A stretch of 64,000 bases of DNA from a gamma proteobacterium symbiont of Ctena orbiculata (GTDB lineage: Bacteria > Pseudomonadota > Gammaproteobacteria > Chromatiales > Chromatiaceae), in NCBI GenBank assembly GCA_003058525.1, contig QBVD01000030.1, positions 1 through 64,000 of the forward strand, in the 5' to 3' direction. Made by a program: the position numbers and the translations under genes. Positions 2,843 to 19,938 of the stretch are shown one piece after another; the first letter of the stretch is position 1; each line of letters begins with the position of its first letter. The notes beneath the pieces are model-generated. The model saw only the letters and a list, made by a program, of their open reading frames with translations, had not been told where the DNA came from and searched no databases.

Positions 2843-3033
2843 GCTGAAAATGATCGCTATACACCGCAAATAAGCGCAAATATTTCTTGATGTTCGGTGT
2901 GGCTTGTATATTGAAGAAGATCGAACTGCCTATTTTGGCGCCAGATCAATAAAGAGTGCAGCGCCGACAATTAATTGCTGCTGCACGAGTGCCGGTTCGA
3001 AGACGCGGCATGCAGGCTTAACCTGATCATATC

Positions 3034-5052: not shown

Positions 5053-5142
5053 TCCATCCGGTCAAAGTTGCAGTGAGTCTGCTTTAATTATTATTTACAA
5101 CAACAAACTGTAGTCTCTATTCAACCATTTTTATATGCGAAC

Positions 5143-5159
5143 TGTTCAGAAACGATACA
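5143..5159. promoter_or_regulatory. candidate activator-binding site 1 (TGT-N11-ACA)
   Basis: The 17-bp dyad TGTTC-N7-ATACA sits inside a wider inverted repeat, ACTGT at 5141-5145 and ACAGT at 5157-5161. Spacing matches the site at 5216-5232 and the one before the alcohol dehydrogenase gene. Dyads of this kind are typical enhancer sites of AcoR-class activators. Binding is inferred. Confidence 0.45.
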
Positions 5160-5212
5160 GTGGACTGTTTAAAAATGTGCCAGGCAGTCAGGCCTGTTTT
5201 ACCGCTCCCATA

Positions 5213-5255
5213 AGCTGTAAGCGTGATTTACAAGTAAAAAGATCGGCTTACAGCT
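5213..5255. promoter_or_regulatory. candidate activator-binding region 2 (TGTAA-N7-TTACA plus 10-bp inverted repeat)
   Basis: TGTAA-N7-TTACA occupies 5216-5232, a perfect 5+5 dyad. The left half also pairs with a distal copy: AGCTGTAAGC at 5213-5222 is perfectly repeated in inverse at 5246-5255. The nested arrangement gives three half-sites in about 40 bp, as expected for cooperative enhancer binding upstream of a sigma-54 promoter. The downstream -24/-12 element lies about 210 bp away. Confidence 0.55.
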
Positions 5256-5463
5256 CAAATCCGCCAGCTTGTTGAATCGATAAAATACCCCGGATTTCAA
5301 GTAGATAATATTCGTCTACACATTTGCTTGTCGCCTGCGGGCTGCGATTTGACCGCCTAAGACATCCAGGCCTTTTGAAACCATTCAGACGCTGTGCAAC
5401 TGCAACAGCATGGGTATCAGCCGATATCGTTATTAAATAACATCAATTTCTGTACCAACATGA

Positions 5464-5480
5464 TGGCGCGTTTTTTGCGA
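5464..5480 (+). promoter_or_regulatory. sigma-54 promoter (-24/-12) for the FAD oxidoreductase gene
   Basis: TGGCGCG-N4-TTGCG differs from the TGGCACG-N4-TTGCW consensus at two positions and keeps the invariant GG (5465-5466) and GC (5477-5478) exactly ten bases apart. Transcription would start near 5490, giving a leader of about 275 bases before the ATG at 5765. No other sigma-54 match with correct spacing was found in the gap. Confidence 0.65.
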
Positions 5481-5764
5481 GCGCTTAATTCAGATATGCA
5501 TTTCTCGATCGAGACACTGCAGAGGGTTCGGAAACAGACCTGGTTTGAATGGACGAGATGGCTGGATTCCGGGTTGTTGACGCAGGTTCAGGTGGATGAT
5601 TGTATGTGGGGAGTTCCTCGAATTTTGAACATTTCAGACACAACAGGAATACCTGGAACAGAGGCTTCATGCCCGGTCCGGGAAGGGTTCGGAGCAGTTG
5701 TTGAACAACCAGGATCTGCGCGGATCCCCCAATGTTCAACATACAGGGAGTGGAGAGAGACACT

Positions 5765-7045
5765 ATGCAGCATGTGATTATCGGTGCAGGCCCGGCAGGT
5801 GTGGTTGCAGCCGAATCAATCAGAAAGTTCGATAAATCCAGTACTGTCACATTAGTCAGTAATGAATCTGAAAGACCCTATTCACGCCTTGCGATACCGC
5901 GGTTTCTGCAAGGTACTATTGCTGAAAAGGATACTTATCTCAGATGCGGGCAGGACTATTTCGCCTCCCAGTCCATTGACGTTCGCAGGGGATGTGTTGT
6001 CAAGGTGGATAGCCGTAACGATTCGGTGAATCTGGCGGATGGCACGCGCTTGGAATATGACCGTTTGTTGATTGCCACCGGCTGTCGGCCTGAAAAGCCG
6101 GCGATTCCCGGTAAAGAGCTTCCTGGTGTTGTGAACTGTTGGACTCTCGAGGATGCAAGAAAGATTGTGTGTAATCTAGGCATCAACAGTCGATTGATTG
6201 TGGTTGGCGGAGGTTTTATCGGCTTCGTTATTATCGATGCGCTAGCACGTACCGGCGCGCACATCGATGTGATTGAAAAGGGAAACCGTATCCTCCCTCA
6301 TTTAATGAACGATGAATCAAGTCGTTTAATCCAATCGTGGTGTGATAAGAAAGGCATCGAGGTGAAAACATGTGTTGATATCGAGGCGATTGAAAGAAGA
6401 AGCGTAACCAGTGGTAATGCGGGATCGGGTTCGCATCTCAGTGTTTTATTGGACAATGGTGATAGTCTCAATGCAGACATGGTGATTTTTACAACAGGTA
6501 CTAAGATCAATACAAAATTTCTCGAAGGATCGGAGATTGCATTTGATCATGGTGTATTAGTGGATGAGCGTCTCAATACCAATATGCCGAATGTCTTTGC
6601 TGCTGGCGATGCCTGTCAAGGTCTTGGTTTTTCCACCGGCGGTCGAAGAGTGCAGGCTGTGCAACTAACCGCCAGTGAACATGGGCGCATAGCGGCTGCA
6701 AATATGTGTGGATTTAAAGCCAGATATTCAGGAAGCATCACCATGAATGTGCTTGATACGCTGGGGTTGGTATCCAGTTCCTTCGGTGCCTGGAACGGTG
6801 TTGAAGGCGGGGAGAGTGTCACCTATTCCCTGTCCGGCAACTACACATATCTTAACCTTCAGTTTAGTGAGGATAAACTTGTCGGCGGATCTTGCATCGG
6901 GAATGCCGAGTGCCTGCAGCAATTACCCAGGTTGATTCATGCGCATACTCCACTTAAAGAATGGAAAAAAAGGCTCATGGATGATCCATGCCGGCTTGGC
7001 GAGGCGTATCATGCACTTTCTCAAGTGAACATCAGTAACAACTAG
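5765..7045 (+). CDS. NAD(P)/FAD-dependent oxidoreductase
   Basis: Flavoprotein of 426 residues with the pyridine-nucleotide-disulfide-reductase-like fold: an N-terminal FAD-binding GAGPAG at about residues 7-12, a second dinucleotide site VVGGGFIG in the middle, and the FAD-contacting motif VFAAGDAC. It lacks the CxxxxC redox disulfide of lipoamide and glutathione reductases, so it resembles rubredoxin/ferredoxin reductases and NirB-type N-terminal domains. The ATG at 5765 has a purine-rich GGAGAGAGA just before it. It stands between the activator and the alcohol dehydrogenase gene, with its own sigma-54 promoter. Its electron partner is not evident; the only rubredoxin in the window is the hydrogenase accessory HupI. 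Confidence 0.82.
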   Translation: MQHVIIGAGPAGVVAAESIRKFDKSSTVTLVSNESERPYSRLAIPRFLQGTIAEKDTYLRCGQDYFASQSIDVRRGCVVKVDSRNDSVNLADGTRLEYDRLLIATGCRPEKPAIPGKELPGVVNCWTLEDARKIVCNLGINSRLIVVGGGFIGFVIIDALARTGAHIDVIEKGNRILPHLMNDESSRLIQSWCDKKGIEVKTCVDIEAIERRSVTSGNAGSGSHLSVLLDNGDSLNADMVIFTTGTKINTKFLEGSEIAFDHGVLVDERLNTNMPNVFAAGDACQGLGFSTGGRRVQAVQLTASEHGRIAAANMCGFKARYSGSITMNVLDTLGLVSSSFGAWNGVEGGESVTYSLSGNYTYLNLQFSEDKLVGGSCIGNAECLQQLPRLIHAHTPLKEWKKRLMDDPCRLGEAYHALSQVNISNN

Positions 7046-7119
7046 GTGCTGTTCTGAACCTAATCTATTCTTAATTGATCGCCTACCGAATACAACAAAT
7101 GTGTTGAGTCTTGAACCAC

Positions 7120-7136
7120 TGTCTCAAAACATGACA
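7120..7136. promoter_or_regulatory. candidate activator-binding site 3, upstream of the alcohol dehydrogenase
   Basis: TGTCT-N7-TGACA is a 17-bp TGT-N11-ACA dyad with the same length as the two sites in the activator gap. It lies about 115 bp before the -24/-12 promoter at 7249, a normal enhancer distance. A second small dyad, CAAC-N6-GTTG, lies just upstream near 7093-7106. Confidence 0.5.
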
Positions 7137-7248
7137 ACTCAGGGTGGGTGATCATAATCGATGATTATTTCTTTTGACTACCGAAGTATCTTAAGTTTTT
7201 TTAATAAAAATAAACGTTTATCAATAACCAATCGTTAAACGCAATGTT

Positions 7249-7264
7249 TGGCCTGATTCTTGCT
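7249..7264 (+). promoter_or_regulatory. sigma-54 promoter (-24/-12) for the PQQ alcohol dehydrogenase
   Basis: TGGCCTG-N4-TTGCT keeps GG (7250-7251) and GC (7262-7263) with ten bases between and matches the consensus -12 block TTGCW fully. Predicted start is near 7275, leaving a leader of about 70 bases to the ATG at 7346. Confidence 0.7.
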
Positions 7265-7345
7265 GAAAACCTGTAACGAGGAATGGGATGTATCCAACGA
7301 ACTGTTACGGGAACAGAACAATCCATTGAACTTGGAGGAGAAGAA

Positions 7346-9115
7346 ATGATGATTTCCCTGCATCGAAAAAGGGTTTTGCTCAAAGTGGTTGCAATATCCA
7401 GCATCAGTGCCGCTGTTACCTTTACCGGTACGGTTAATGCACGCACGACACAGGCTGAAATAGATGGTGATGCAGCCAGTACACAAGATGTTCTGAGCTG
7501 GGGTATGGGCCAGCAAGGCCAGCGTTACAGCCCGCTTAAGAAGATCAATACAGGCAATGTTAAGAAACTGGTACCCGCATGGAGTTTCTCATTTGGTGGA
7601 GAGAAGCAGCGTGGACAGGAGGCACAGCCGGTTATCAAGGATGGTAAGATGTTTGTCACGGCATCATATTCCCGACTTTATGCAATTGACACAAAGGCAG
7701 GTCAGGAGCTTTGGCAATATGATCACCGCCTGCCTGATGGCATCCTGCCATGTTGTGACGTGGTCAACCGAGGTGCGGCGCTGTATGACGATCTGGTGAT
7801 TTTTGGAACCTTGGATGCACGGATTATCGCTCTCCATCAGGATACCGGAAAGGTCGTCTGGCGTGCCAAGATCGATGACTATAAGGCGGGCTACTCTTTC
7901 ACGGCAGCGCCTCTGATTGTCAAGGACATGGTTATCACAGGTGTCTCCGGTGGTGAATTTGGTGTCATCGGGCGTGTTGAGGCGCGTGATGCAAAGACCG
8001 GTAAACTGCGTTGGATCCGTCCGTCGGTCGAAGGGCATATGGGTCATATCTGGAAAGGTGACAAAAAGATGGAGAATGGTGTCACCGGTAAGACCAATGC
8101 CAGTTGGCCCGGCGATATGTGGAAAACCGGTGGCGCCGCAACCTGGCAGGGCGGTACCTATGATCATGAAACCGATCTGATCTTTTACGGTACAGGTAAT
8201 CCCGCACCGTGGAATGCGCATCTGAGGCCTGGCGACAACCTCTATTCGACATCGACTCTGGCCATCGATCCCGATACCGGGAAGATCGCATGGCATTATC
8301 AATACACGCCTAATGACGGTTGGGATTATGATGGTGTCAACGAACTCGTTTCGTTCAATAGCGGCGGCGAGAAGCTGGCAGGTCACGCTGACAGGAACGG
8401 CTTTTTCTATGTCCTGGACCGTACCAACGGTAAATTGAAAAACGCTTTTCCTTTTGTCAACAGGATCGATTGGGCGAAAGGCGTTGACCTGAAGACCGGC
8501 CGTCCACTCGAAACCGGTGTGCGTCCTGGTGATCCCACCAAGAGCAAAGATGGTAAAAAGGGTGATGTTGTATTCGTCGCGCCCTCTTTCCTCGGCGCGA
8601 AAAACTGGATGCCTATGGCTTACAGTCCGGATACCGAACTCTTCTATGTACCGGCCAATGAGTGGGGCATGGATATCTGGAATGAGCCCATTACCTATAA
8701 AAAGGGCGCGGCCTACCTGGGTGCCGGATTTACCATCAAGCCCCTCAATGATGACTACATCGGTGCATTGCGTGCGGTCAATCCAAAGACTGGAAAAATC
8801 GTATGGGAATACAAAAACAACGCACCTCTATGGGGTGGCGTGATGACGACAGCCGGCGGATTGGTGTTTACCGGCACGCCGGAAGGTTACCTGAAGGCGT
8901 TCGATGCCAAGACCGGAGATGAGTTGTGGAATTTTCAGACCGGTTCCGGTGTGGTCGGTTGTCCGGTTACCTGGGAGCAGGATGGTGAGCAATACATCGC
9001 TGTACCCTCAGGCTGGGGTGGCGCAGTCCCACTGTGGGGTGGTGATGTTGCCAAGAAGGTCAAATACCTGAACCAGGGTGGATCACTCTGGGTCTTCAAG
9101 TTGTCTGATGTCTGA
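7346..9115 (+). CDS. exaF: lanthanide-type PQQ alcohol dehydrogenase (ExaF/PedH-like; XoxF relative)
   Basis: Periplasmic quinoprotein that oxidises primary alcohols and passes electrons to cytochrome c. The 589-residue protein starts at the ATG at 7346, preceded by GGAGGAGAAGAA, and carries a signal peptide ending near VNA. The adjacent Cys pair C136-C137 (PCCD) forms the strained disulfide over PQQ. The catalytic Asp is D327 in WDYD, and the residue two positions later is D329, the extra aspartate diagnostic of lanthanide-using enzymes (calcium enzymes have Ala or Ser). Overall wording, such as KNW-PMAYS and FYVPAN, is closer to ExaA/PedE ethanol dehydrogenases than to MxaF, which together with D329 points to ExaF/PedH. 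Methanol as substrate cannot be excluded. Downstream genes encode its cytochrome and relay proteins. Confidence 0.88.
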
Positions 9116-9125
9116 TTAGCGTGAT

Positions 9126-9155
9126 GGATCGGATATTGAGTTTGATATCCGATCC
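9126..9155 (+). other. intercistronic hairpin between dehydrogenase and cytochrome genes
   Basis: A perfect 11-bp stem (GGATCGGATAT pairing with ATATCCGATCC) with an 8-base loop starts ten bases after the dehydrogenase stop codon. There is no T-run, so a strong intrinsic terminator is unlikely; an mRNA 3'-end stabiliser that allows higher dehydrogenase than cytochrome expression fits better. This is inference from structure only. Confidence 0.5.
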
Positions 9156-9296
9156 TGATCCGCGCTCAGCAGTGCTGACCAAACATCTTACAACCCAACA
9201 CTGACAGATACATAGCGAAAGAGAAATCTGCCGGATGGTTATCAGGCATGACGATCATTCTCAGGCTTTCTGTTTGATTACCTGGAGTATCTCCAC

Positions 9297-9725
9297 ATGC
9301 AAATCTCAACATCAATTAAAGTCGGGCTCGGTCTGATATTATCGGCTATCATTGCGGGTAAGGCTTTAGCGCACGGCGATGTGGTGCCTCAGGCCGTTGA
9401 TACCAAACACCTGCCTCCGTTGGGTGAGGATTGGCTCGAGGTTAATCCATACAGAGACAATGCGGATGCCGTAAAGACTGGGGCTTCCGCCTACAATCAA
9501 AACTGCGCGCGATGTCATGGCCTGGGTGCCGTCTCCGGTGGCATCGCCCCTGATCTGCGTTTGCTGCCACCCGAAGATGAGGGAGATGAGTGGTTTATGT
9601 ATCGTGCCCGCAACGGTGCTGTACGTAACGGAATTACCTACATGCCGAAGTTTGAGGGCATCCTTTCACAGGAGGCGCTCTGGTCGATCAGGGCCTGGCT
9701 GGTGACCCTGCCTGTTGAAGAGTAG
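9297..9725 (+). CDS. pedF: cytochrome c-550, PedF family
   Basis: Secreted monohaem cytochrome c of 142 residues, the likely electron acceptor of the quinoprotein dehydrogenase. A signal peptide ends near KALA, and the mature protein opens with HGDVVPQAVDT, a block I recognise from the PedF cytochrome c-550 family. The haem motif is CARCH at residue 70, and the distal Met is probably the one in TYMPKF. GGAG lies 10-13 bases before the ATG. It is separated from the dehydrogenase gene by 181 bases containing a hairpin and is followed closely by the XoxJ-like gene. Confidence 0.88.
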   Translation: MQISTSIKVGLGLILSAIIAGKALAHGDVVPQAVDTKHLPPLGEDWLEVNPYRDNADAVKTGASAYNQNCARCHGLGAVSGGIAPDLRLLPPEDEGDEWFMYRARNGAVRNGITYMPKFEGILSQEALWSIRAWLVTLPVEE

Positions 9726-9754
9726 TCATCGAGACATAACAGTGAGAGAGTGAT

Positions 9755-10666
9755 ATGTATAGGATCAAAGACATTTTAATCTTTGCGGCTGCAGTTGCCT
9801 CTCTTATGCTGGCGAGTCCGGCAACAGCCGAGGATGAACCCACTGCATTGGATCGCATCAGAGAGCGTGGCGTCCTGGAGGTTGCGGTATACAACGACTT
9901 TCCACCTTTTTCCTATCGTGACGAACGGGGCAGGATTGTCGGAATAGATGCGGATATCGCCCATGCACTTGCCAAGTCATTGGGTGTGGCGGCGGCAATC
10001 AGAGCGGTGGGTGCCGACGAATCGATGGAAGACGACCTGCGTAATAACGTTTGGAAGGGGCATTACCTGGGTGGAGGCGTAGCCGATGTAATGCTGCATG
10101 TTCCCTATGATGCCGCGTTTGCCGAAGAGAATGATCGTGTCATCTTCGTTGCGCCCTATTACCGGGAACAGGTCGTGGTGACGGTTGAGAAGGGAGTCGG
10201 GGCCAATCTCGATCCATTGGACTATTTCAGTCGCGAAAAGGTGGGCGTTGAGCTGGATACCCTGACGGATTTCTATCTCTTGTCTGCCTACAATGGCAAA
10301 ATCCGCAATCAGGTTGTCCACTTTTCGAATATCGGTAAAGCGGTTAACGCCCTGAAAAAAGGTGAGGTTGCCGGTGTTGCCGGTCCACGCAGTGAGATTG
10401 AGTTCGCACTGGGGGATCAGCTGGCCAATTATGCTGTGGGACCGATACGGATGCCTGGCTTGAGTACTTCCGGATGGGATCTGGGTGCAGCGGTGAAACA
10501 GGGTAACGGTGCCTTGGCTGAAGCAGTGGAACAGGCAATATCCCAGCTACGCCAGAGTAGTTCATTAAGTAAGATATTTACGCAGTATCGCTCCACCTAT
10601 CAATTACCAAGCCGAACCAGGCTGGTAAGGGTTGAATCTGATGGGCGCATCAGTCAGCGTGATTAA
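9755..10666 (+). CDS. XoxJ/MoxJ-like quinoprotein-associated periplasmic binding protein
   Basis: Periplasmic protein of 303 residues with a signal peptide (cleavage near PATA) and the family-3 solute-binding fold: the N-terminal block GVLEVAVYNDFPPFSYRD is characteristic. Members next to methanol and ethanol dehydrogenase genes (MoxJ/XoxJ) do not transport solutes but are thought to assist dehydrogenase maturation or activation. Here it sits directly after the cytochrome gene, the same position as XoxJ after xoxG. No permease or ATPase accompanies it, which argues against an amino-acid transporter role. Confidence 0.8.
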   Translation: MYRIKDILIFAAAVASLMLASPATAEDEPTALDRIRERGVLEVAVYNDFPPFSYRDERGRIVGIDADIAHALAKSLGVAAAIRAVGADESMEDDLRNNVWKGHYLGGGVADVMLHVPYDAAFAEENDRVIFVAPYYREQVVVTVEKGVGANLDPLDYFSREKVGVELDTLTDFYLLSAYNGKIRNQVVHFSNIGKAVNALKKGEVAGVAGPRSEIEFALGDQLANYAVGPIRMPGLSTSGWDLGAAVKQGNGALAEAVEQAISQLRQSSSLSKIFTQYRSTYQLPSRTRLVRVESDGRISQRD

Positions 10667-11234
10667 CAGACGGGGTTGGTGCAACTGGTTCGTTATCATT
10701 CTACTGTCTGGGATCGCAGAAGCAGGGACGGTGGAGGCCGTCGATGAGCGCTATCGTATACGTGCCGAAAATCAGCAGCAGGAGTTGATATCGCTTGGAA
10801 CGTTAATATTGGTGAATAGCGCAAATGGTCAAGGCTATCGCATCGAATGGGATGAGGCGCAGTTTGAAAATCACTTCCTCTCCATGCGTCCATTCAAATG
10901 TCTCCCGCACCCGGTCCAGTTAATCTGCCATCTGCCATATCCCTATGAAATCAAGCGCAAGATAGACCATGATGATCTGACCGACCTGGAATATGACATG
11001 CTGTTTCTGCATAAGACCCCCCAGGAATACGGCATCAATGCCTGGAACGGTCTCTATTTTAAATTTCAGCGCGACCGGAATGGATTCTCCGGGGAGCTGA
11101 GAGAGACCGATTTGAATGTGCTCCAGGCTCCCCCGGATGAGGGTGATCTCCGTCCCATCGATCCGGATGCCTTGTACGAACCGTCCGATAAGCATTGGTT
11201 GCGTCGTATCATTATCGAACCGGTCGGATCCTAA
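10641..11234 (+). CDS. secreted protein of unknown function in the alcohol-oxidation locus
   Basis: I do not recognise this 197-residue protein. It has a hydrophobic signal-like segment (WFVIILLSGIAEA) at about residues 18-30, then a soluble region with two Cys in FKCLPHPVQLICH that could form a disulfide in the periplasm, and an acidic C-terminal half. The ATG at 10641 was chosen over a start three codons earlier because it gives a better signal peptide; either overlaps the XoxJ-like gene by about 26-35 bases. Tight packing between quinoprotein genes argues that it is real and works in the same pathway. Confidence 0.65.
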   Translation: MGASVSVINRRGWCNWFVIILLSGIAEAGTVEAVDERYRIRAENQQQELISLGTLILVNSANGQGYRIEWDEAQFENHFLSMRPFKCLPHPVQLICHLPYPYEIKRKIDHDDLTDLEYDMLFLHKTPQEYGINAWNGLYFKFQRDRNGFSGELRETDLNVLQAPPDEGDLRPIDPDALYEPSDKHWLRRIIIEPVGS

Positions 11235-11245
11235 GGAGCCAAAGT

Positions 11246-12034
11246 GTGAAGTCGATAGACCGACAGTTATTTCTTTCCTGCATCCTCCTATGCTGCCTTG
11301 TAAATCCAAGCTACGCACAACAGGACCAAACCGATCCATTGAACTCGCCGATGTGGGAGGATATGCACCGATCCCTGTTGGGCGGCGCCTCGGTGGTGTT
11401 TGATGACAGGGTTCAGGTATTGGCACCCGTCGATGCGGAAGATTCGATGAATGTACCGGTCCTGGTGGACGCAACGGCACTGGGTGAGGTTTCGAAGATC
11501 GTGGTGTTCGCGGAACTCAATCCCATCCATAAAGTGCTTGAATTGGAACCGCTTCATGCCAAGCCCATTATCGGCTTTCGCATCAAGGTGCAGCAGGCCA
11601 CGCCGGTTCGGGCAGCGGCACTTGCAGGTGACGGCCGATGGCATGTGGGTGGACGGATTGTCGATGCGGCTGGCGGTGGTTGCACTCTGCCCAGTATCGG
11701 CAGTGAAAACAGTGATTGGGCCAGCCGCATGGGAGAGGTTGCCGGCAGACTCTGGTCAAATCAAGATTCCACCCGCCTGCGAATGCGCGTCATGCATCCC
11801 ATGGACACCGGTTTAGTGCCGGGTATACCGGCATTCTACATCGACCATCTGGAGTTTCACGATGCGAACGGGGAGATACTCTCCCGCCTGTTCCTGCATG
11901 AACCGGTCTCTGAAAATCCCGTTCTCACACTCGATCTGCCGAGGCGTGATTCCGTAACCGTTGTGGGGGCGGATAATAATGGTAATCCAGTCAAAGCGCG
12001 GTTTATGACTGGCATGAATGAGGCGGAAATGTAA
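11246..12034 (+). CDS. quinoprotein-associated SoxYZ-like carrier protein
   Basis: Periplasmic protein of 262 residues combining SoxY-like and SoxZ-like parts in one chain. The start is a GTG at 11246 with AGGAG eight bases upstream, followed by a signal peptide ending near PSYA. The SoxY-type swinging-arm cysteine is probably in GGGCTLP near residue 150, although here it is internal rather than C-terminal; the SoxZ-like immunoglobulin fold would be the last 90 residues. This fusion family is repeatedly found beside PQQ dehydrogenases, together with the metallohydrolase and CxxxCW proteins encoded next. The bound intermediate is unknown. Confidence 0.78.
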   Translation: MKSIDRQLFLSCILLCCLVNPSYAQQDQTDPLNSPMWEDMHRSLLGGASVVFDDRVQVLAPVDAEDSMNVPVLVDATALGEVSKIVVFAELNPIHKVLELEPLHAKPIIGFRIKVQQATPVRAAALAGDGRWHVGGRIVDAAGGGCTLPSIGSENSDWASRMGEVAGRLWSNQDSTRLRMRVMHPMDTGLVPGIPAFYIDHLEFHDANGEILSRLFLHEPVSENPVLTLDLPRRDSVTVVGADNNGNPVKARFMTGMNEAEM

Positions 12035-12978
12035 TGTCGTCACGGCGAATTGTGATATTCCTATTCTGCCTGTGTTTCCTCACACCGGTATGGGGCGCCA
12101 AGGACTATGGCTTGAAACCACTTAAGATCGCACCCGATACCTACGTGCTGCTGGGTGAAAATGAACATTTCAATTTCAGCAACGGGGGTAATATCGTCAA
12201 TGTCGGTTTTATCGTGACGGACGATGGCGTGATCGTGATCGATAGCGGGCCATCCCGCTTCTATGGTGAACAGTTGCGCGCAGCCATTGGCAGGATTACC
12301 GACCGACCGATTCTGAAGCTCTTCAATACTCACCTGCACCCGGATCACATCCTCGGTAATCAGGCCTTCGAGGATATCCCCATAGCCGCCCTGGCGGGTA
12401 CCGTTGAAGGTATCCGTGAACAGGGTGAACTGTTCAACGACAGTATGTACCGTCTGGCGGGTGCCTGGATGGCGGGTACCCGGGTAGTGGTGCCGACCGA
12501 AACCGTTAAACCGGGTTTTGTAGAGATCGGAGGTCACCGTCTTGAATTGATAGAGCTTGATGGTCACTCCCATGCCGACCTGGTGATTCTCGATCATGCG
12601 ACCGGGGTGTTGTTTGCTGCGGATGTTGTGTTTCATGGGCGTACACCCACCACCCCCCATGCCGATGTAGGACAATGGTTACAGGCACTTGATACGATAG
12701 CCGAGCTTGATTTCAAGCTGCTGGTACCTGGGCACGGCAGTGTGGTCACGGATAGCGTGGCAATCGCTCAGACGCGAAATTACCTGCAATGGTTGACAAC
12801 CCGTCTGAACAAGGCTGCGGAACAGGGGATGAGCATGGCCGAAGTACTGCAACCTGATGCACCCCCATCGATCATGGAACTGGCTGTCTTTCTCGAGGAG
12901 TATCAGCGCTCAGTCGTCCATCTGTTTCCGGAGATTGAGGCGAAGGTGCTGGACCGGGGCAGGGTGGTGCAAGAGTGA
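12034..12978 (+). CDS. quinoprotein-associated metallo-beta-lactamase-fold hydrolase (SoxH-like)
   Basis: Secreted 314-residue protein with a signal peptide (cleavage near VWG). The zinc-binding motif THLHPDH, the later GHSH and the GHG of the third metal site are all present, so a binuclear metal centre is likely. It belongs to the SoxH-like metallohydrolases encoded beside PQQ dehydrogenases and SoxYZ-like carriers, where a role in releasing a product from the carrier has been suggested. Its ATG overlaps the preceding stop by one base (TAATG), indicating translational coupling. Confidence 0.82.
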   Translation: MSSRRIVIFLFCLCFLTPVWGAKDYGLKPLKIAPDTYVLLGENEHFNFSNGGNIVNVGFIVTDDGVIVIDSGPSRFYGEQLRAAIGRITDRPILKLFNTHLHPDHILGNQAFEDIPIAALAGTVEGIREQGELFNDSMYRLAGAWMAGTRVVVPTETVKPGFVEIGGHRLELIELDGHSHADLVILDHATGVLFAADVVFHGRTPTTPHADVGQWLQALDTIAELDFKLLVPGHGSVVTDSVAIAQTRNYLQWLTTRLNKAAEQGMSMAEVLQPDAPPSIMELAVFLEEYQRSVVHLFPEIEAKVLDRGRVVQE

Positions 12979-12984
12979 CCCGGC

Positions 12985-13563
12985 ATGAGAATGCGCACCT
13001 TTGCCGAGACAATCCTATGCGCCATTCTTTCGCTACAGCCTACCGTCACGCTTGCGACCGATAGTCCGCTCTTTTCACCGGAGGGTTACCGCATTGCCCG
13101 TTATCGCGCACCTCTGCCCGAGATGCCACCCGCTGGAAAACGCCTCGATACCAGGTTGCTTGTCGAACTGATACGTCGGCAGAATCCGTTGTTATTGGAT
13201 GTCCAGGCAATCACCCTGCGTCCGGAGACGGAGGAGTTCGGTATCGCCTGGCTGCCGAGCAGACAGAGATGGCATATTCCGGGAAGCACCTGGTTGCCGA
13301 ATGTGGGATATGGCTATCTCGATTCACGCATGCATGCCTATATGCAAACCAACCTTGAACGCCTCACCCTGGGTGACAGGGATAGAGCGCTGGTCTTCTA
13401 TTGTGTGGTCGATTGTTGGATGTCCTGGAACGCCGTAAAGCGGGCAGATGCGCTGGGCTATAGAAATCTCTATTGGTATCCGGAAGGCAGTGACGGATGG
13501 TATGAGGCGGGGTTGGAGCTCGTCCCCGGCGTTCCGGTCCCTTTCAAATTGAGTGAAAAATGA
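12985..13563 (+). CDS. PQQ-associated CxxxCW rhodanese-like protein
   Basis: Secreted 192-residue protein, last of the relay genes. After the signal peptide (near TLA) it contains the diagnostic motif CVVDCW near residue 137, followed by a rhodanese-like tail (ALGYRNLYWYPEG). The family is defined by co-occurrence with PQQ-dependent catabolism and carries the paired cysteines of a sulfur- or thiol-handling site. It starts seven bases after the metallohydrolase stop. Function in detail is not established. Confidence 0.78.
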   Translation: MRMRTFAETILCAILSLQPTVTLATDSPLFSPEGYRIARYRAPLPEMPPAGKRLDTRLLVELIRRQNPLLLDVQAITLRPETEEFGIAWLPSRQRWHIPGSTWLPNVGYGYLDSRMHAYMQTNLERLTLGDRDRALVFYCVVDCWMSWNAVKRADALGYRNLYWYPEGSDGWYEAGLELVPGVPVPFKLSEK

Positions 13564-13615: not shown

Positions 13616-13745
13616 AGTTAACGCTCATCCAATTGGCCCTTTTGTCTCTGAAAAAACGCCAATCAAGGCGCAAGTAGAGGGATTCGATTGTGCCAAATGA
13701 ACGACGAGCAATGACTTGTGGCGATTTTTCAGGCTCAACCGGTAG
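13616..13745. repeat. degenerate left part of the GGGCCTGTTAACA MITE
   Basis: GTTAACGCTCATCCAATTGG, then ACGCCAATCAAGGCGCAAG, then TGCCAAATGAACGACGAGCAA follow the left half of the full element at 22844 block by block with scattered changes. The outer GGGCC end and the entire right half are missing. It fills the gap between the CxxxCW gene and tetR and runs into the last codons of tetR. Confidence 0.7.
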
Positions 13746-14367
13746 GTCTTATTGCCACTACCTCGCTCACCGAAGTCGGCATCATGCCATGCCACATACA
13801 GTCGATCAGTTCTTCGTACAGATTGGGCAGAGGCTCGTTAAGCACGCCGTCCAGACGCAGGTGGATCAAGCGGATGGCGCCGCCGAAGATGTTGGAGGCG
13901 ACGACCCAGGGGTCACCTTGCCGGATCTCGCCCGACTCTATCCCCTTCTGCACGATGTTACGCATTGTCTTGAAAGGGGTGGAGCTGCAGATCGGGGGCT
14001 CATCGGGCAGAAACTCATGGTGTTTGGCATGCAGTACGTAGGAGATGATATTGCGCTTTGTTTCAGTGTATTCAAAGAGCAGGTAGATGATGCGGTTGCA
14101 GCTCTCCCGAAAACTCAGATCCTCGGTGATGACATCCTCCACCAACTCCTCCATCTCCCTGATCAGATGGTAGAAGAGCGCCTTGGCAACACCCTCTTTA
14201 CCGCCGAAATGGTTGTAGATAGAGCCGATGCTGACGTTGGCCTGTTTCTGGATGTCGTGTATCGAGACGTTGTGAAAGCCCTTTTCGACAAAGAGATCGA
14301 GGGCTGTGCTCAGAATACGGGAGTCCACAGGGGCGTTGGCCGGGGTGATTTTTTTAAGATGCGGCAT
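13735..14367 (-). CDS. TetR-family repressor of the methanethiol oxidase locus
   Basis: DNA-binding regulator of 210 residues. The N-terminal helix-turn-helix is typical of TetR proteins (ILSTALDLFVEKGFHNVSIHDI then ANVSIGSIYNHFGGKEG); the C-terminal two-thirds is a ligand-binding helical domain. The start at 14367 has AGGAACC upstream; an earlier in-frame ATG at 14412 would add 15 unlikely residues. It is divergent from mtoX and a perfect palindrome lies between -35 and -10 in the shared gap. Its stop codon lies inside a degraded MITE, so the extreme C-terminus may have been altered. Ligand unknown; a volatile sulfur compound is a reasonable guess. Confidence 0.85.
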   Translation of the reverse strand: MPHLKKITPANAPVDSRILSTALDLFVEKGFHNVSIHDIQKQANVSIGSIYNHFGGKEGVAKALFYHLIREMEELVEDVITEDLSFRESCNRIIYLLFEYTETKRNIISYVLHAKHHEFLPDEPPICSSTPFKTMRNIVQKGIESGEIRQGDPWVVASNIFGGAIRLIHLRLDGVLNEPLPNLYEELIDCMWHGMMPTSVSEVVAIRPTG

Positions 14368-14422
14368 GCGGGTTCCTATAGGCTTAGTTTTGTCGGCAAT
14401 TATAACCAGCATAGTAAAAAAT

Positions 14423-14451
14423 TTGACAAGAATGAATATTCATTCTATTTT
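14423..14451 (+). promoter_or_regulatory. mtoX promoter with TetR-type operator in the spacer
   Basis: TTGACA (14423-14428) and TATTTT (14446-14451) are 17 bases apart. The spacer is almost entirely the perfect 16-bp palindrome GAATGAATATTCATTC (14430-14445), an ideal position for a repressor to block RNA polymerase. A close copy of the whole arrangement occurs at 18703-18731. Confidence 0.72.
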
Positions 14452-14666: not shown

Positions 14667-16055
14667 ATGAGGCTATTCAAGAAAAAGCCCGCCAAGTCCA
14701 TTGCCTTGGCATCCGCCCTGGCTCTCGGGACCACCCTTTTCGGTGCGGTTCTGCCCCTGCAGGCCGATGAAACCTGCCAGTCACCCTACATGGCCAAGAT
14801 TGTCGGCCAGGAAGACTTCGTCTATGTCTGGACCCTCGGCATCGAGGGATTGGGAGACGGTCAGGACAAGCTGGTGACCATTGACGTCAATCCGAAATCA
14901 TCCAACTACGGCAAGGTGGTCCACAGCCTGTCGGTAGGCGGTCGCAACGAGGCCCATCACTCCGGCTTCACCGATGACCGGCACTATCTCTGGGCAGGCG
15001 GTCTCGATACCAACAAACTCTTCATCTTCGACGTCCACAGCGATCCGGCCAAGCCCAAGCTGCACAAGGTCGTTACCGATTTTGTGGAGAAAAGCGGCGG
15101 CGTGGTCGGGCCCCACACTACCTATGCCTTGCCGGGACGCATCATGATAACCGGTCTCTCCAACAACAAGGATCACGGCGGCCGCACCGCCCTGGTTGAA
15201 TACACCAACGAGGGAGAGTATGTGGCAAACCACTGGATGCCCACGGATCAGAACCTGCGCGGCGCGGAGAAGACCGGCAAGTACGCCGACGGCTACAACT
15301 ATGACGTGCGTGTATTGCCGCGACGTAACATCATGCTCACCTCCTCGTTCACAGGTTGGTCCAACTACATGATGGACTTCGGCAAGATGCTGCAGGACAA
15401 GGAGGCGATGAAACGCTTCGGTAACACCGTGGTGTTGTGGGACCTGCACAGCAAGAAGCCGAAAAAAGTCTTCGACGTACCCGGTGCGCCACTGGAGATC
15501 CGTTGTGCCTGGCAGCCGAACCATAACTGGTGCATCACCTCCACGGCACTCACCTCCAAGCTGCACCTGATCTATGAGGATGAGAACGGCGAGTGGCAGG
15601 CCAAGGCAGTGGCCGATATCGGCGATCCCTCCAAGGTGCCGTTGCCGGTGGATATCTCCATCAGTTCCGACGATAGCCGGCTCTGGGTCAACACCTTTAT
15701 GGACGGCAAGACCCGGCTCTTCGACATGACAGATCCGCACAATCCCAAGCAGGTCTACGAAAAGAAGATCGGCCGCCAGGTCAATATGGCCTCCTCCAGC
15801 TGGGACAGTACCCGTATCTATTACACCTCTTCGCTGCTGGCCAATTGGGATAAGAAGGGCGAGGATAACGAACAGTTCTTCAAGAGCTATGTCTGGGACG
15901 GCAAAAAGCTGGTGGAGAAATTCGCTATCGACTTCAATAAAGAGAAACTCGGCCGCGCCCACCAGATGCGTTTCGGTGCTTACTCCCTCTATGGTGCAGT
16001 CAGGCCTGAGGAAAAGGAGGTCTCCGTAGCCAGCCTGGAGTCCATCGTCAAGTGA
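14667..16055 (+). CDS. mtoX: methanethiol oxidase (SBP56 selenium-binding protein family)
   Basis: Enzyme of 462 residues of the SBP56 family, whose bacterial members oxidise methanethiol to formaldehyde, hydrogen sulfide and hydrogen peroxide and depend on copper. The start has CGGAGG nine bases upstream and the protein carries a signal peptide ending near LQA, so it is periplasmic. The N-terminal block CQSPYMAK and later family blocks (GRNEAHHSGF, VVGPHTTYALP, GRAHQMRFG) are present, including several conserved His. It is followed by SCO1 and MauG functions, the partner genes known from mtoX operons of methylotrophs. This context strengthens the methanethiol assignment over a generic selenium-binding label. 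Confidence 0.9.
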   Translation: MRLFKKKPAKSIALASALALGTTLFGAVLPLQADETCQSPYMAKIVGQEDFVYVWTLGIEGLGDGQDKLVTIDVNPKSSNYGKVVHSLSVGGRNEAHHSGFTDDRHYLWAGGLDTNKLFIFDVHSDPAKPKLHKVVTDFVEKSGGVVGPHTTYALPGRIMITGLSNNKDHGGRTALVEYTNEGEYVANHWMPTDQNLRGAEKTGKYADGYNYDVRVLPRRNIMLTSSFTGWSNYMMDFGKMLQDKEAMKRFGNTVVLWDLHSKKPKKVFDVPGAPLEIRCAWQPNHNWCITSTALTSKLHLIYEDENGEWQAKAVADIGDPSKVPLPVDISISSDDSRLWVNTFMDGKTRLFDMTDPHNPKQVYEKKIGRQVNMASSSWDSTRIYYTSSLLANWDKKGEDNEQFFKSYVWDGKKLVEKFAIDFNKEKLGRAHQMRFGAYSLYGAVRPEEKEVSVASLESIVK

Positions 16056-16147
16056 TACAGGCAGTTCCGGATGTCTGACAGGCATCCGGAGGGAGGCAAC
16101 CCTGTCGGATGGATCTCTGTCAGGGTTGCCGCTGTCTGGGAGCACCT

Positions 16148-18097
16148 ATGCATAATCTATTTATACGATCTGTCTGGCTTGCCGCCATCCTGATTTCAAC
16201 AGCGTCAGCCGATCCGTTATCCGATTCAGCGCCGGGCTATGGTGAGTTGGGCTACACACTGCCGGCGATAGGCGGTTATTCCCTGCCACCGCTAGGTGAG
16301 GCAGGGAATGGGTTGGTGCTCAACAGCGAAGGGAAACAGCAGCGTCTGCACGACCTCTTCAATGACCGCTATGTCCTGTTGGCGTTTATCTACAGTACTT
16401 GCAGTGACGTTAACGGATGCCCGCTCTCTTCCCATGTCTTCTATAAGATCAAATCGGCGATGAAAAGGGATGCGATGTTGGCCGACAGGCTGAAGCTGAT
16501 CAGTCTGAGTTTCGATCCCGAAGTCGACACGCCGGAGGTGATGAAACTCTATGCCAATAATTTTCGTTATGCCGGAAGTTCAGGGGAGTGGCAGTTCATT
16601 ACCACCGCTTCGCATCGGGCGCTACAACCCATATTGCAATCCTATAATCAGGTGATTCAGCGGGAGGTCGACAGCAGCGGAAAGGCAAGTGTGGGCTACA
16701 GCCATGTGCTGCGGGTCTTCCTCATCGATCCGCAAAAGCGTATACGCAATATCTACAGTGTCGATTTTCTCCATCACGATCTGATCATCAACGATGTGAA
16801 GACGCTGCTGATGCAGGAAGAGAATCAAGGTCGGTTGTTAAAGGCTGCTCTGAGCCTCCCCGAGCCTTCAAAATTATCCAAACCGGGGGATGATAAACAG
16901 GGTTACGAGCAGGAGAGCTATGTTACTCGATCCCTCGATCTGGAGTTGAGGAAAGGCCAGGCTGCGAATCTGATGACCTATATCGAACAGCCGCCACTGG
17001 GGCTGCCCCCGGTACCGGTACCGGAGAACAATTCCATAACCCGGGAAAAGATCGAACTCGGCAGAAAGCTTTTCTATGACCGCAGGCTCTCGCTCAACGA
17101 CACTTTCTCATGTGCCATGTGCCATGTCCCTGAGCAGGGATTCACCAGCAACGAGCTGGCCATGGCGGTAGGCATAGAGGGGCGCAGCGTGCGGCGCAAC
17201 TCGCCCACCATCTACAACTCGGCCTATGCCGCCCTGCTGTTTCACGACGGGCGCGAGCAGACCCTGGAACAGCAGGTCTGGGGTCCGTTGCTGGCCAGGA
17301 ACGAGATGGCCAATCCATCGATCGGCTATGTTCTGGAGAAGATCCGCAAGATCGATGACTATGAGGGTAGCTTCGAGGCTGCTTTCGATGGCAGGGGAGT
17401 GAGTATGGAGACGCTCGGCATGGCCATCGCCAGCTATGAACGCGCCCTCGTTTCCGCAGGCTCACCCTTCGATCATTGGTACTATGGGGGTGATAAACAG
17501 GCACTCTCAGCTTCAGGGCAGCGGGGTTTTGAGCTCTTTGTCGGCAAGGCAGGATGTGTGGCCTGCCACCACATAGGCGACAAGCATGCCCTCTTCAGTG
17601 ACGATGGCCTGCACAATACCGGTATAGGGTACAGGGAATCGATGGGAATAGTGCCCGAGACGCAGCCGGTGACGGTGGCGCCGGGTGTGACCCTGCAGAT
17701 CGATCGATCGGTCATCGAACAGGTGGGCGAACCGGCACCCACTGACGTGGGTCTGTATGAGGTGACGCAAAATCCCAACGACCGCTGGAAGTACAAGACA
17801 CCCAGTTTGCGCAATGTAGCGCTCACAGCACCATACATGCATAACGGTTCCTTCAGTACCCTGCGTGAAGTCGTTGAGTTTTATGACAGGGGGGGCGTCG
17901 CAAACGAGCTGCTCGATCCCTTGATCAGGCCGTTGGGATTAAATGAATCTGAGAAACAGGATCTGGTCGCCTTCATGCGATCCCTCACCGGCGGCAATGT
18001 GGACACCCTGGTGGCCGATGCCTTTGCCGCGCCTGTTGGTGATGTGGGAAAGGGTGATCCGAGTTGGGTGCACGGTACAGATGTGGAGGTGCGCTGA
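16148..18097 (+). CDS. SCO1-MauG fusion: copper-chaperone domain joined to dihaem peroxidase
   Basis: Secreted 649-residue protein joining two functions usually encoded by separate genes in mtoX operons. After the signal peptide, residues about 50-235 are a SCO1/SenC thioredoxin-fold domain, but the cysteines are C85-x5-C91 (CSDVNGC) instead of the usual CxxxC; the copper-ligand His is in YSHVLR. Residues about 290-625 are a MauG/cytochrome c peroxidase-like domain with haem motifs CAMCH (C322) and CVACH (C470). GGGAG lies before the ATG at 16148. Likely role: copper delivery to, and post-translational maturation or electron exchange with, methanethiol oxidase. The reading frame is continuous through the junction, so this is not a frameshift artefact. 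Confidence 0.85.
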   Translation: MHNLFIRSVWLAAILISTASADPLSDSAPGYGELGYTLPAIGGYSLPPLGEAGNGLVLNSEGKQQRLHDLFNDRYVLLAFIYSTCSDVNGCPLSSHVFYKIKSAMKRDAMLADRLKLISLSFDPEVDTPEVMKLYANNFRYAGSSGEWQFITTASHRALQPILQSYNQVIQREVDSSGKASVGYSHVLRVFLIDPQKRIRNIYSVDFLHHDLIINDVKTLLMQEENQGRLLKAALSLPEPSKLSKPGDDKQGYEQESYVTRSLDLELRKGQAANLMTYIEQPPLGLPPVPVPENNSITREKIELGRKLFYDRRLSLNDTFSCAMCHVPEQGFTSNELAMAVGIEGRSVRRNSPTIYNSAYAALLFHDGREQTLEQQVWGPLLARNEMANPSIGYVLEKIRKIDDYEGSFEAAFDGRGVSMETLGMAIASYERALVSAGSPFDHWYYGGDKQALSASGQRGFELFVGKAGCVACHHIGDKHALFSDDGLHNTGIGYRESMGIVPETQPVTVAPGVTLQIDRSVIEQVGEPAPTDVGLYEVTQNPNDRWKYKTPSLRNVALTAPYMHNGSFSTLREVVEFYDRGGVANELLDPLIRPLGLNESEKQDLVAFMRSLTGGNVDTLVADAFAAPVGDVGKGDPSWVHGTDVEVR

Positions 18098-18664
18098 ATG
18101 GTGATACCCGCTAAACACTTGCTGTTTCTACTGATCTTCAGCGCACTCTCGGTCACCGTGACCTGGGCCAACACCGAGGAGCTGGGTGGCGAATTCAGTC
18201 TGACCGATCACAACAACAATCCCTTTGAATTGCGCCAGCTTCAGGGCAAGCTGGTGCTGCTCTTCTTCGGCTACACCTACTGCCCCGATATCTGCCCCAC
18301 CGAGCTGGCGAATGTGGCTGCGGTACTCAATGAGCTGGATGATCAGGGGGATCGGGTGCAGGGGCTGTTTGTATCCCTGGATCCCGGGCGCGACTCCCCT
18401 GAAGTGATGCGGGACTATGTCCACTATTTCAACAAAGGGCTGGTCGGGCTGACCGGAAGCGAGGATGAAGTGGCGCAGGTGGCCCGGCAATACCGTGTCA
18501 ATTACAAAAGACACGAAAGAGAGGATGGCGGCTATAGCATCGACCATTCGGCCAACCTCTACCTGATTGACGGCCAGGGAAAGCTCACTGCGGTAGTGCC
18601 CTACGGTATGCCACCAAAGCATATTCTCGATCTGGTACGAGGGTTATTGGCTGAAAGTGGCTGA
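18098..18664 (+). CDS. SCO1/SenC copper chaperone
   Basis: Secreted or membrane-anchored thioredoxin-fold protein of 188 residues. The canonical copper-binding CPDICP and the distal His in IDHSANLYLID are present. Its ATG immediately follows the stop codon of the SCO1-MauG fusion, so the two are co-translated. With the SCO domain of the fusion this makes two SCO modules in one operon, one canonical and one with altered cysteine spacing, probably serving copper loading of methanethiol oxidase. A role in cytochrome oxidase assembly is possible but no oxidase genes are nearby. Confidence 0.88.
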   Translation: MVIPAKHLLFLLIFSALSVTVTWANTEELGGEFSLTDHNNNPFELRQLQGKLVLLFFGYTYCPDICPTELANVAAVLNELDDQGDRVQGLFVSLDPGRDSPEVMRDYVHYFNKGLVGLTGSEDEVAQVARQYRVNYKRHEREDGGYSIDHSANLYLIDGQGKLTAVVPYGMPPKHILDLVRGLLAESG

Positions 18665-18665
18665 T

Positions 18666-19352
18666 ATGATTTCCCAGGCCAGAAAAACGTCGGGTGAAAT
18701 GGTTGACAGAAATGAACGTTCATTCTATTCTTTATCCCGGTTCGACCATACGGGTTGGCCGGTCGATGGCTGTGGGCAAGCTGCACAGGTTTCGAGTCCC
18801 TTCAGCTACCTCGGGCACAGTCTGACCGGTTTAACCTGGTCGATCCTGTCGTTTGCGCTATTCATGTCAGTTGTATTGAAGGCATCGGCCACTGAGGGTC
18901 TGCTTGCTGCAGTCAGGCCGCTACCCGCGCCTGCTTTCCGCCTGCAGGATCTGGAAGGGAGAAACCATCAACTTCATGATTACAGGGGCAGGGTGTTGAT
19001 AGTCAATTTCTGGGCCAGCTGGTGTGTGCCCTGCCGTCGCGAGCTGCCGTCGATGAACCGGGCCTGGACAGTGTTGAAGCCCAAAGGGATCGTCATGCTG
19101 GCGATCAACCTGGGGGATGATGCGGAGGCGGTCAAGGAATTCCTGAATGACTTCCCCATCGATTTTCCCGTGTTGCTGGATCACCGGGGACGGATCAGTC
19201 AGCGCTGGCAGGTTCGGGGATTGCCAACGACCTTGGTGCTGAATCGTCGAGGTGAAATCGTCTACCGGGCAGTCGGCGAGCGGGAGTGGGACGATGCAGC
19301 ACTGCTGCATCAGCTACAGACCCTGCAGCCTGAATCAACAAAGCTTGACTGA
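18666..19352 (+). CDS. TlpA/ResA-like periplasmic thioredoxin
   Basis: Membrane-anchored thioredoxin-fold reductase; the start is uncertain. The open frame begins at a GTG at 18657 and has ATGs at 18666, 18699 and 18864. The catalytic domain begins around FRLQDLEG and has the active site WASWCVPC and a cis-Pro loop GLPTTLVL. A hydrophobic stretch (LTWSILSFALFMSVVLKASA) precedes it and would be the signal anchor. A strong -35/-10 with a TetR-type operator lies at 18703-18731, inside the frame if an early start is used, which suggests initiation further downstream. Role probably in keeping cysteines of SCO or cytochromes reduced. Confidence 0.72.
   Translation: MISQARKTSGEMVDRNERSFYSLSRFDHTGWPVDGCGQAAQVSSPFSYLGHSLTGLTWSILSFALFMSVVLKASATEGLLAAVRPLPAPAFRLQDLEGRNHQLHDYRGRVLIVNFWASWCVPCRRELPSMNRAWTVLKPKGIVMLAINLGDDAEAVKEFLNDFPIDFPVLLDHRGRISQRWQVRGLPTTLVLNRRGEIVYRAVGEREWDDAALLHQLQTLQPESTKLD
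18703..18731 (+). promoter_or_regulatory. second TetR-type operator and promoter, before the thioredoxin gene
   Basis: TTGACA (18703-18708) and TATTCT (18726-18731) are 17 bases apart and enclose the perfect palindrome AATGAACGTTCATT (18711-18724). Layout, half-site (AATGAA) and downstream TTCTATT match the mtoX promoter, so the same TetR protein probably controls both. Confidence 0.68.
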
Positions 19353-19419
19353 TTTTTTTTGGATTCCAATCTTTGGCTGAACAGTGTCAGAGTTCATTTC
19401 GATCAAATCACAGGTGCAT

Positions 19420-19938
19420 ATGATGATAAATAAGTCGATACAAAAAAGAGGGTGGCGGGGTTTGCTGGTGGGTCTCCTGCTGTTCAGCATGGACTCGGCC
19501 AATGCAGCGGAAAAGATCAACGATGCAATGGCACTGAATGGGGTGAAGGAGACCCGCAGTGTCTTTCTTATCGATTTCACCAATCCCCAGAAGACAGCAT
19601 TCTATCTCGACATCATCCGTGGAACCCATGAGGGTCTGGTGAGACAGGGCGTGAAACCCAACATGGTACTGGTCTTCATCGGTGAGACGGTGCGTTATCT
19701 TTCAACCGAACCTGACGACGTCCTGGCCATGGAATATGGCAAGCAGCTTGATTCAATTGCAGATACCGCCAAGGCACTGAAGGCAAAAGGGGTGCGAATG
19801 GAGGTCTGTGCCATCGCCAACCGTGTCTTCGAGGTGGATAACGCTACTGTTCTGCCGGAAATGGATGTGGTAGGGGATGGCTTCATCTCGCTCATCGGCT
19901 GGCAGACACAGGGACATAAGCTGGTGCCCATCTTTTAG
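19420..19938 (+). CDS. exported DsrE/DsrF-like protein
   Basis: Small protein of 172 residues with a signal peptide (RGLLVGLLLFSMDSANA) followed by a DsrE-like domain; the cysteine in MEVCAIAN sits where DsrE-type proteins carry their persulfide Cys. Cytoplasmic DsrE proteins move sulfane sulfur in sulfur oxidisers; this exported version after methanethiol oxidase genes may handle the sulfide that the oxidase releases, which is inference. AGGTG lies just before the ATG at 19420; the frame also extends to a GTG at 19384 that would disturb the signal peptide. Confidence 0.72.
   Translation: MMINKSIQKRGWRGLLVGLLLFSMDSANAAEKINDAMALNGVKETRSVFLIDFTNPQKTAFYLDIIRGTHEGLVRQGVKPNMVLVFIGETVRYLSTEPDDVLAMEYGKQLDSIADTAKALKAKGVRMEVCAIANRVFEVDNATVLPEMDVVGDGFISLIGWQTQGHKLVPIF

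Follow-up and report, generated by a model that had tools for sequence, protein, structure and literature searches.

The fused gene and its surroundings

The stretch of DNA analysed here, hereafter the window, consists of 64,000 nucleotides (positions 1 to 64,000 of contig QBVD01000030.1, assembly GCA_003058525.1) from a gammaproteobacterial symbiont of Ctena orbiculata. Our subject is a gene within it that begins 92 bases after mtoX, the gene for methanethiol oxidase (MtoX), and that encodes a SCO1/SenC domain and a MauG-like dihaem module in a single protein (Table 1). Its frame runs from the ATG at 16148 to the stop codon ending at 18097 without interruption, and the base right after that codon (18098) is the first of a separate, canonical SCO1 gene. 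Both MtoX and the fusion protein carry Sec-type signal peptides, judged by eye, from which we infer that they are periplasmic.

A preliminary description of this DNA had reported one continuous frame with the two parts following mtoX and a canonical SCO1 next, and the open reading frame, the Pfam matches and the CxxCH motifs at residues 322 and 470 bear it out, as the sequence does for the C-x5-C (Cys85-x5-Cys91) that it had noticed in the fused SCO domain. Its border for the SCO part, at about residue 235, agrees with ours; the MauG part, which it had begun at residue 290, starts at about 245, and the junction, which it had put near 16,900-17,000, lies at about 16850-16880 by comparison with unfused relatives. 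The Pfam CCP_MauG match (PF03150) itself covers residues 300-448 (E 1.2e-48).

Table 1. Features in and around the mtoX and sco1/mauG genes of the window
Feature	Position	Strand	Evidence
TetR-type regulator gene, divergent	13735..14412	-	PF00440 and PF16295
Perfect 16-base palindrome GAATGAATATTCATTC in the gap between the TetR gene and mtoX	14430..14445	.	1 match, 0 in 100 shuffles
mtoX, methanethiol oxidase (SBP56 family)	14667..16055	+	Passes curated NCBIfam NF052453: 793.7 bits, cut-off 650
sco1/mauG fusion gene, 649 amino acids	16148..18097	+	Open reading frame, Pfam, same architecture in relatives
SCO1/SenC domain, residues 65-198	16340..16741	+	PF02630, 51.1 bits, cut-off 22.8, E 1.7e-13
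Cys85-SDVNG-Cys91 (C-x5-C motif)	16400..16420	+	Invariant in 17 aligned fusions
His186, likely third copper ligand (putative)	16703-16705	+	Invariant in 17 aligned fusions
Variable joint, residues 236-244	16853..16879	+	Comparison with unfused proteins: SCO end and mature MauG start here
MauG-like dihaem module, residues 245-649, opening with a conserved PGDDKxGYE stretch	16880..18094	+	PF03150, 166 bits
First haem motif CAMCH, residues 322-326	17111..17125	+	Conserved
His366, column of the inter-haem Trp in MauG and bacterial peroxidases	17243..17245	+	Alignment
Second haem motif CVACH, residues 470-474	17555..17569	+	Conserved
Tyr579, column of the MauG axial Tyr (Met in peroxidase 4aal)	17882..17884	+	67/67 rows
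Separate canonical SCO1, CPDIC (CxxxC)	18098..18664	+	PF02630, 162.3 bits
TlpA/ResA-like thioredoxin-fold protein	18657..19352	+	PF00578; NF002854 below its cut-off
DsrE-like protein, final gene of the run	19384..19938	+	PF02635

The joint itself is informative. Most unfused gammaproteobacterial MauG proteins have, as their mature N-terminus just past the signal peptide, a PGDxKxGYxS-like stretch, and in most fusions this stretch follows immediately on the end of the SCO part; it is missing from the four MauG proteins of our phylum-wide sample (below), from that of Ruegeria and from a few fusions. To judge by these sequences, the fusion looks like two neighbouring genes, also known apart, that were joined, the MauG part losing its signal peptide.

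Could the single frame have been created from two genes by sequencing or assembly? The halves do occur separately elsewhere (Ruegeria, locus L009; 8 of the 33 mtoX places described below). The junction, however, where the preliminary description had suggested looking for such an error, holds no stop or frameshift, the same one-frame protein is present in the closest relative, Ca. Thiodiazotropha endolucinida (genome G350, 94% identity), and unbroken frames occur in many other gammaproteobacteria, in independent assemblies; fusions are also described in the accessible parts of two publications (PMC5739008, PMC6548844). We consider an artefact ruled out for practical purposes.

Distribution and link to mtoX

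Our main sample comprised 369 gammaproteobacterial genomes, 32 of which have mtoX over the NF052453 cut-off, at 33 places, and the DNA around all 33, the window included, was examined. A one-frame fusion is present at 23 of these places (one of them, L107, broken into two frames) and is thus the majority form at the gammaproteobacterial mtoX places sampled. At eight others SCO and MauG are split as separate neighbours, the MauG gene of L118 being on the opposite strand, so that both halves adjoin mtoX, fused or split, at 31 of the 33. Of the remaining two, one (L112) has MauG alone nearby, in a genome with a fusion on another contig (L127), and the other (L138) is a second mtoX of the symbiont's own genome, with neither. 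In a separate phylum-wide sample of 398 genomes, four besides the symbiont's own pass the mtoX cut-off, each of them with the split arrangement.

The association also holds when approached from the fusion. Matches to it at E <= 1e-90 occur in 34 of the 369 genomes, including all 32 with mtoX over the cut-off, while the remaining two (G121, G351) have an mtoX truncated at a contig end; the resulting table (32/0/2/335) gives a Fisher p of 4e-44, a value that ignores kinship and the fact that the genes are neighbours. One genome, G241, goes against the pattern, with a partial mtoX (587 bits, below the cut-off and cut by a contig end) and no match to the fusion. At the looser threshold of E <= 1e-60 a further 18 genomes match, at 38-45% identity, and none of them has mtoX over the cut-off; their matches are other MauG-like proteins. 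Among plasmid records the single place covering at least 80% of the query is that of Ruegeria, which is split, and a search of viral contigs for relatives returned none. No MauG relative was found near divergent SBP56 genes at the 16 loci examined, several of which are short or truncated by a contig end. Locus L103 has a divergent SBP56 gene (10918-12363) inside a cluster with a true mtoX, its fusion and a second MauG, and at five loci (L084, L103, L114, L119, L123) an unfused second MauG lies directly behind the fusion.

Did the fusion arise once? In a quick tree of 56 rows and two references with long branches (CCP, L095, L107, L080 and eight further Thiodiazotropha-type loci are omitted), the fused label changes 11 times, at least three of these changes being forced by well-supported branches. 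Because fused and unfused rows interleave in this way, a single origin is unsupported and, as far as such a tree can tell, repeated joining or splitting, in one direction or the other, has happened.

The SCO half

The fused SCO domain lacks the CxxxC copper motif and has the distal histidine ligand. Cys85, Asp87, Gly90, Cys91, Pro92 and His186 are invariant among the 17 aligned fusions, and in the wider alignment C-x5-C is present in 44/44 fused rows and in 16 of the 17 frames with SCO only, compared with C-x3-C in all 35 rows of the downstream type (counts that leave out L095, a copy of L075, and that are weighted towards Thiodiazotropha). The exception is L130, whose SCO gene adjoins a divergent SBP56 gene and has the ordinary C-x3-C. 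Two of the SCO-only frames, L090 and L093, run into a contig end and could be truncated fusions; among the other 15, C-x5-C is found in 14. We had considered that the altered spacing might result from fusion, an idea that we rejected as unfused SCO proteins linked to mtoX carry the same motif. A canonical SCO gene follows within 300 bases on the same strand in 20 of the 44 fusions.

That this half retains the SCO fold is suggested by an AlphaFold2 model, for the SCO region of which the top Foldseek matches are solved Sco proteins. The SCO-type histidine is kept in 44/44 fused rows, and the SCO half of L114 (gene at 7764-9803) has a His/Met-rich insert (HEGHDMSGHEGHDMSAM) whose composition hints at a copper-binding loop.

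The MauG half

Among solved structures the chain 6e1c (8.7e-49), which we take to be MbnH, comes closest to the MauG half, followed by peroxidases (about 1e-39) and MauG (about 1e-24). The MbnH family TIGR04039 is likewise the best NCBIfam match, at 239.4 bits under a cut-off of 362.85, and the MauG family TIGR03791 is matched at 194.6 bits, under its cut-off of 443.85. Both CxxCH motifs are retained, together with Tyr579, which aligns with the tyrosine of Methylobacterium DM1 MauG, and the distal Gln376, Pro380 and Glu386. The axial tyrosine is of the MauG type in every aligned row, two of the 67 (L075 and L095) being one gene.

The residue at the position of the inter-haem tryptophan differs. 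This column holds His in 58 of the 66 rows with a letter there (57/65 without the duplicate), the others having V (3), L (2), F, A and W (1 each), whereas the control rows have W in 27 of 31 (27 of 30 genes), L in three and H in one; the controls were 20 of the 23 weaker genome matches, six MauG/peroxidase relatives from the symbiont's own genome, one of them entered twice, and four plasmid genes. The alignment at this column appears sound, because the spacing from it to the distal Gln, Pro and Glu (+10, +14, +20) is equal in DM1 MauG and the fusion. With 6e1c, the alignment places a Trp one column before it. At L119 and L123, which have two MauG copies, the fused copy has Val at this column and the unfused copy keeps His. 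One plasmid locus, L177 of Azonexus hydrophilus, has a tandem pair of cytochrome c peroxidase/MauG-like genes (2743-8291) directly before annotated arsenate reductase (azurin) subunit genes.

Our search of the open-access literature, with supplementary files and most subscription papers outside it, found no description of C-x5-C in SCO proteins linked to mtoX or of His at the inter-haem position. As family traits the two are apparently undescribed, and worth testing.

The axial ligand bears on whether the fusion could serve turnover and not maturation, its dihaem half removing H2O2 derived from methanethiol or accepting electrons and its SCO half being a thiol-redox partner. A tyrosine in all 67 rows, where a peroxidase has methionine, argues against this even though peroxidases belong to the same fold family. 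Peroxide production has been reported for the Hyphomicrobium and human enzymes, and the available text of PMC10936201 reports that MtoX is active without the fusion; the same text also reports that Ruegeria MtoX produces no peroxide. Similarly, the SCO spacing differs from the usual copper-chaperone CxxxC, but a copper enzyme that adjoins a Cys/Cys/His protein suggests metal delivery. On balance, a turnover role seems unlikely to us.

MtoX and its key residues

What would a maturation factor have to act on in MtoX? Residues C37, H97, H98, H150, W231, W394 and H432 of the window MtoX align with C28, H88, H89, H141, W223, W386 and H424 of the Ruegeria enzyme, the residues named in PMC10936201 as far as its text was available, so that the putative copper histidines, the cysteine in TCQSPYM and both tryptophans named in print are retained. 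Across 58 MtoX rows His97, His432, Trp231 and Trp394 are each present in 58/58, and Cys37, His98 and His150 each in 57/58. It has been proposed in print that the tryptophan pair forms a tryptophan tryptophylquinone (TTQ) cofactor. Column counts had suggested to us that Trp231 is peculiar to MtoX and tracks MauG, an idea that we dropped because 16 of the 18 rows of divergent SBP56 proteins have a loop Trp, placed three columns earlier. Since these proteins have that Trp with no MauG nearby, conservation neither backs nor excludes the published TTQ proposal.

The near-invariance of Cys37 raises the thought that the SCO half, carrying no copper, is a thiol-disulfide enzyme that keeps this cysteine reduced or processes its persulfide. 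The homologous Cys28 of Ruegeria is reported as required (PMC10936201, available text), a TlpA-like protein is encoded close by and C-x5-C is unlike CxxxC; the invariant SCO-type histidine and the insert in L114, however, both point to copper, and we regard a purely thiol-based function as improbable.

Neighbouring genes and the upstream region

The genes that follow the fusion offer possible partners, in particular the TlpA/ResA-like protein, which is a possible reductant of the SCO cysteines. Upstream of mtoX, the palindrome GAATGAATATTCATTC recurs at the loci of three relatives (L073, L074, L075) and may be an operator through which the divergently encoded TetR protein controls mtoX. It sits within the spacer of a promoter-like pair directed at mtoX (region 14423-14451), in a region where such sites are at chance level (3 found, 4.2 expected). 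Farther upstream, a run at 9755-13563 encodes a binding protein, a SoxYZ-like carrier (TIGR04557), a SoxH-related metallohydrolase (TIGR04558) and a CXXCW protein (TIGR03865), the set that NCBIfam ties to quinoprotein dehydrogenases.

A proposed role for the fusion

We propose, with a probability of roughly 0.6, that the fusion acts in the periplasm, as a single protein, to mature the neighbouring MtoX. Its SCO half would take up copper through Cys85, Cys91 and His186, perhaps kept reduced or supplied with copper by the adjoining SCO1 and TlpA proteins, and would then deliver the metal to the histidine site of MtoX. The MauG half, predicted to carry two c-type haems of which one would be Tyr-ligated, would use peroxide to oxidise MtoX residues, possibly the Trp231/Trp394 pair. 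The frame, the domains, the residue conservation and the joint occurrence with mtoX are observed; that the protein binds copper and haem, that it acts on MtoX and how it would modify it are steps that we infer. The preliminary description had also suggested a dedicated MtoX maturation protein, which fits the co-occurrence, all 32 mtoX genomes holding this type of MauG; the novelty that it claimed was mistaken (see below). It had further raised the prospect that such fusions are common and unrelated to SBP56: common they are, at 23 of 33 places, but they are tied to mtoX.

Several observations weigh against a maturation role. According to the accessible text of PMC10936201, Ruegeria MtoX made alone in Escherichia coli consumed methanethiol, and according to that of PMC10362175 human SELENBP1 from E. 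coli was active with copper; as both were active when made in this host, both halves may be dispensable. The symbiont's second mtoX (G000:C86:8030-9265, or 7940-9319 of L138; 781.7 bits) has no SCO or MauG gene in 20,000 of its contig's 20,618 bases. To these may be added the loop Trp of the divergent SBP56 proteins, near whose genes there is no MauG. The inter-haem Trp, which PMC6405878, in the part available, describes as shown to be needed in MauG for bis-Fe(IV) stabilisation and TTQ biosynthesis, is His366 in the fusion. Finally, AlphaFold2 modelled the MauG half poorly (the pLDDT, or predicted local distance difference test score, averages 53.4), which makes the model usable for the SCO half only.

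These observations could be reconciled with the proposed maturation role if the accessory proteins serve to enhance activity, or are required in the periplasm only, and the product of the second mtoX may be matured in trans or do without maturation. Nor does the change from Trp to His by itself rule out MauG-type chemistry, because the Burkholderia enzyme BthA, with Ser at this position, forms bis-Fe(IV). A bolder version of the maturation proposal, which we advance tentatively as the less probable course, is that the SCO-MauG proteins linked to mtoX, fused or split, are a separate cofactor-making branch of dihaem proteins, marked by His for Trp and by C-x5-C, that would act as one unit in loading copper and oxidising MtoX by an oxidant route other than that of MauG, fusion having fixed a partnership that was already obligatory when split.

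The global sulfur cycle includes the oxidation of methanethiol, and the window adds chemosynthetic clam symbionts to the organisms that carry the sco1/mauG system linked to mtoX; our open-access literature search found no paper joining Thiodiazotropha and methanethiol. The family-wide C-x5-C and the His-for-Trp replacement provide exact positions at which to probe copper loading and MauG-type chemistry without a Trp relay.

Comparison with known systems

In BthA (PMC6405878), a dihaem enzyme with Tyr ligation as proposed for the MauG half, the inter-haem Trp is likewise missing, but Ser and not His takes its place, and the accessible text of that paper mentions neither a SCO domain nor a link to mtoX. 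The MauG of methylamine dehydrogenase (Methylobacterium DM1, L140) has in common with the window protein two CxxCH motifs, the axial Tyr and the equally spaced distal Gln/Pro/Glu; it differs from it in that the latter has His for the inter-haem Trp, comes with no mau genes and misses the TIGR03791 cut-off. The MbnH family, despite being the best match among both NCBIfam models (TIGR04039) and solved chains (6e1c) and having Tyr at the axial position, is set apart from the window protein by the missed cut-off and by the latter's fusion to SCO and link to mtoX.

Closer in gene arrangement is Ruegeria pomeroyi (L009), where mtoX is followed by two homologous halves in the order of the fusion but as two genes, SPOA0270 and SPOA0271. 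Together these match the fusion at 46% identity, in two pieces that cover 85% of the query. They share with it C-GDVNG-C and FHDGR, whereas the regulator there is of the IclR type and the MauG protein is without the PGDDKxGYE stretch.

The nearest counterpart is Methylophaga thiooxydans, in which, contrary to the premise of the preliminary description that SCO1 and MauG are separate genes in described mtoX operons, a sco1/mauG fusion next to mtoX has been on record since 2017 (PMC5739008). A 2019 paper (PMC6548844) reports two clusters, each with mtoX, a SCO1/MauG fusion and a SCO1/SenC/PrrC protein, and the induction of both fused genes on dimethyl sulfide. In what is available of these papers, the further genes of Methylophaga are those for a persulfide dioxygenase, SqrB and sulP, in contrast to the TlpA-like and DsrE-like genes of the window, and the likeness is one of described gene content and order. 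Nevertheless, both domains are encoded there by a single gene straight after mtoX, with a SCO1/SenC/PrrC-type gene following, and the role proposed in print is also the maturation of MtoX. The fusion itself is, therefore, already known, and the window adds another case.

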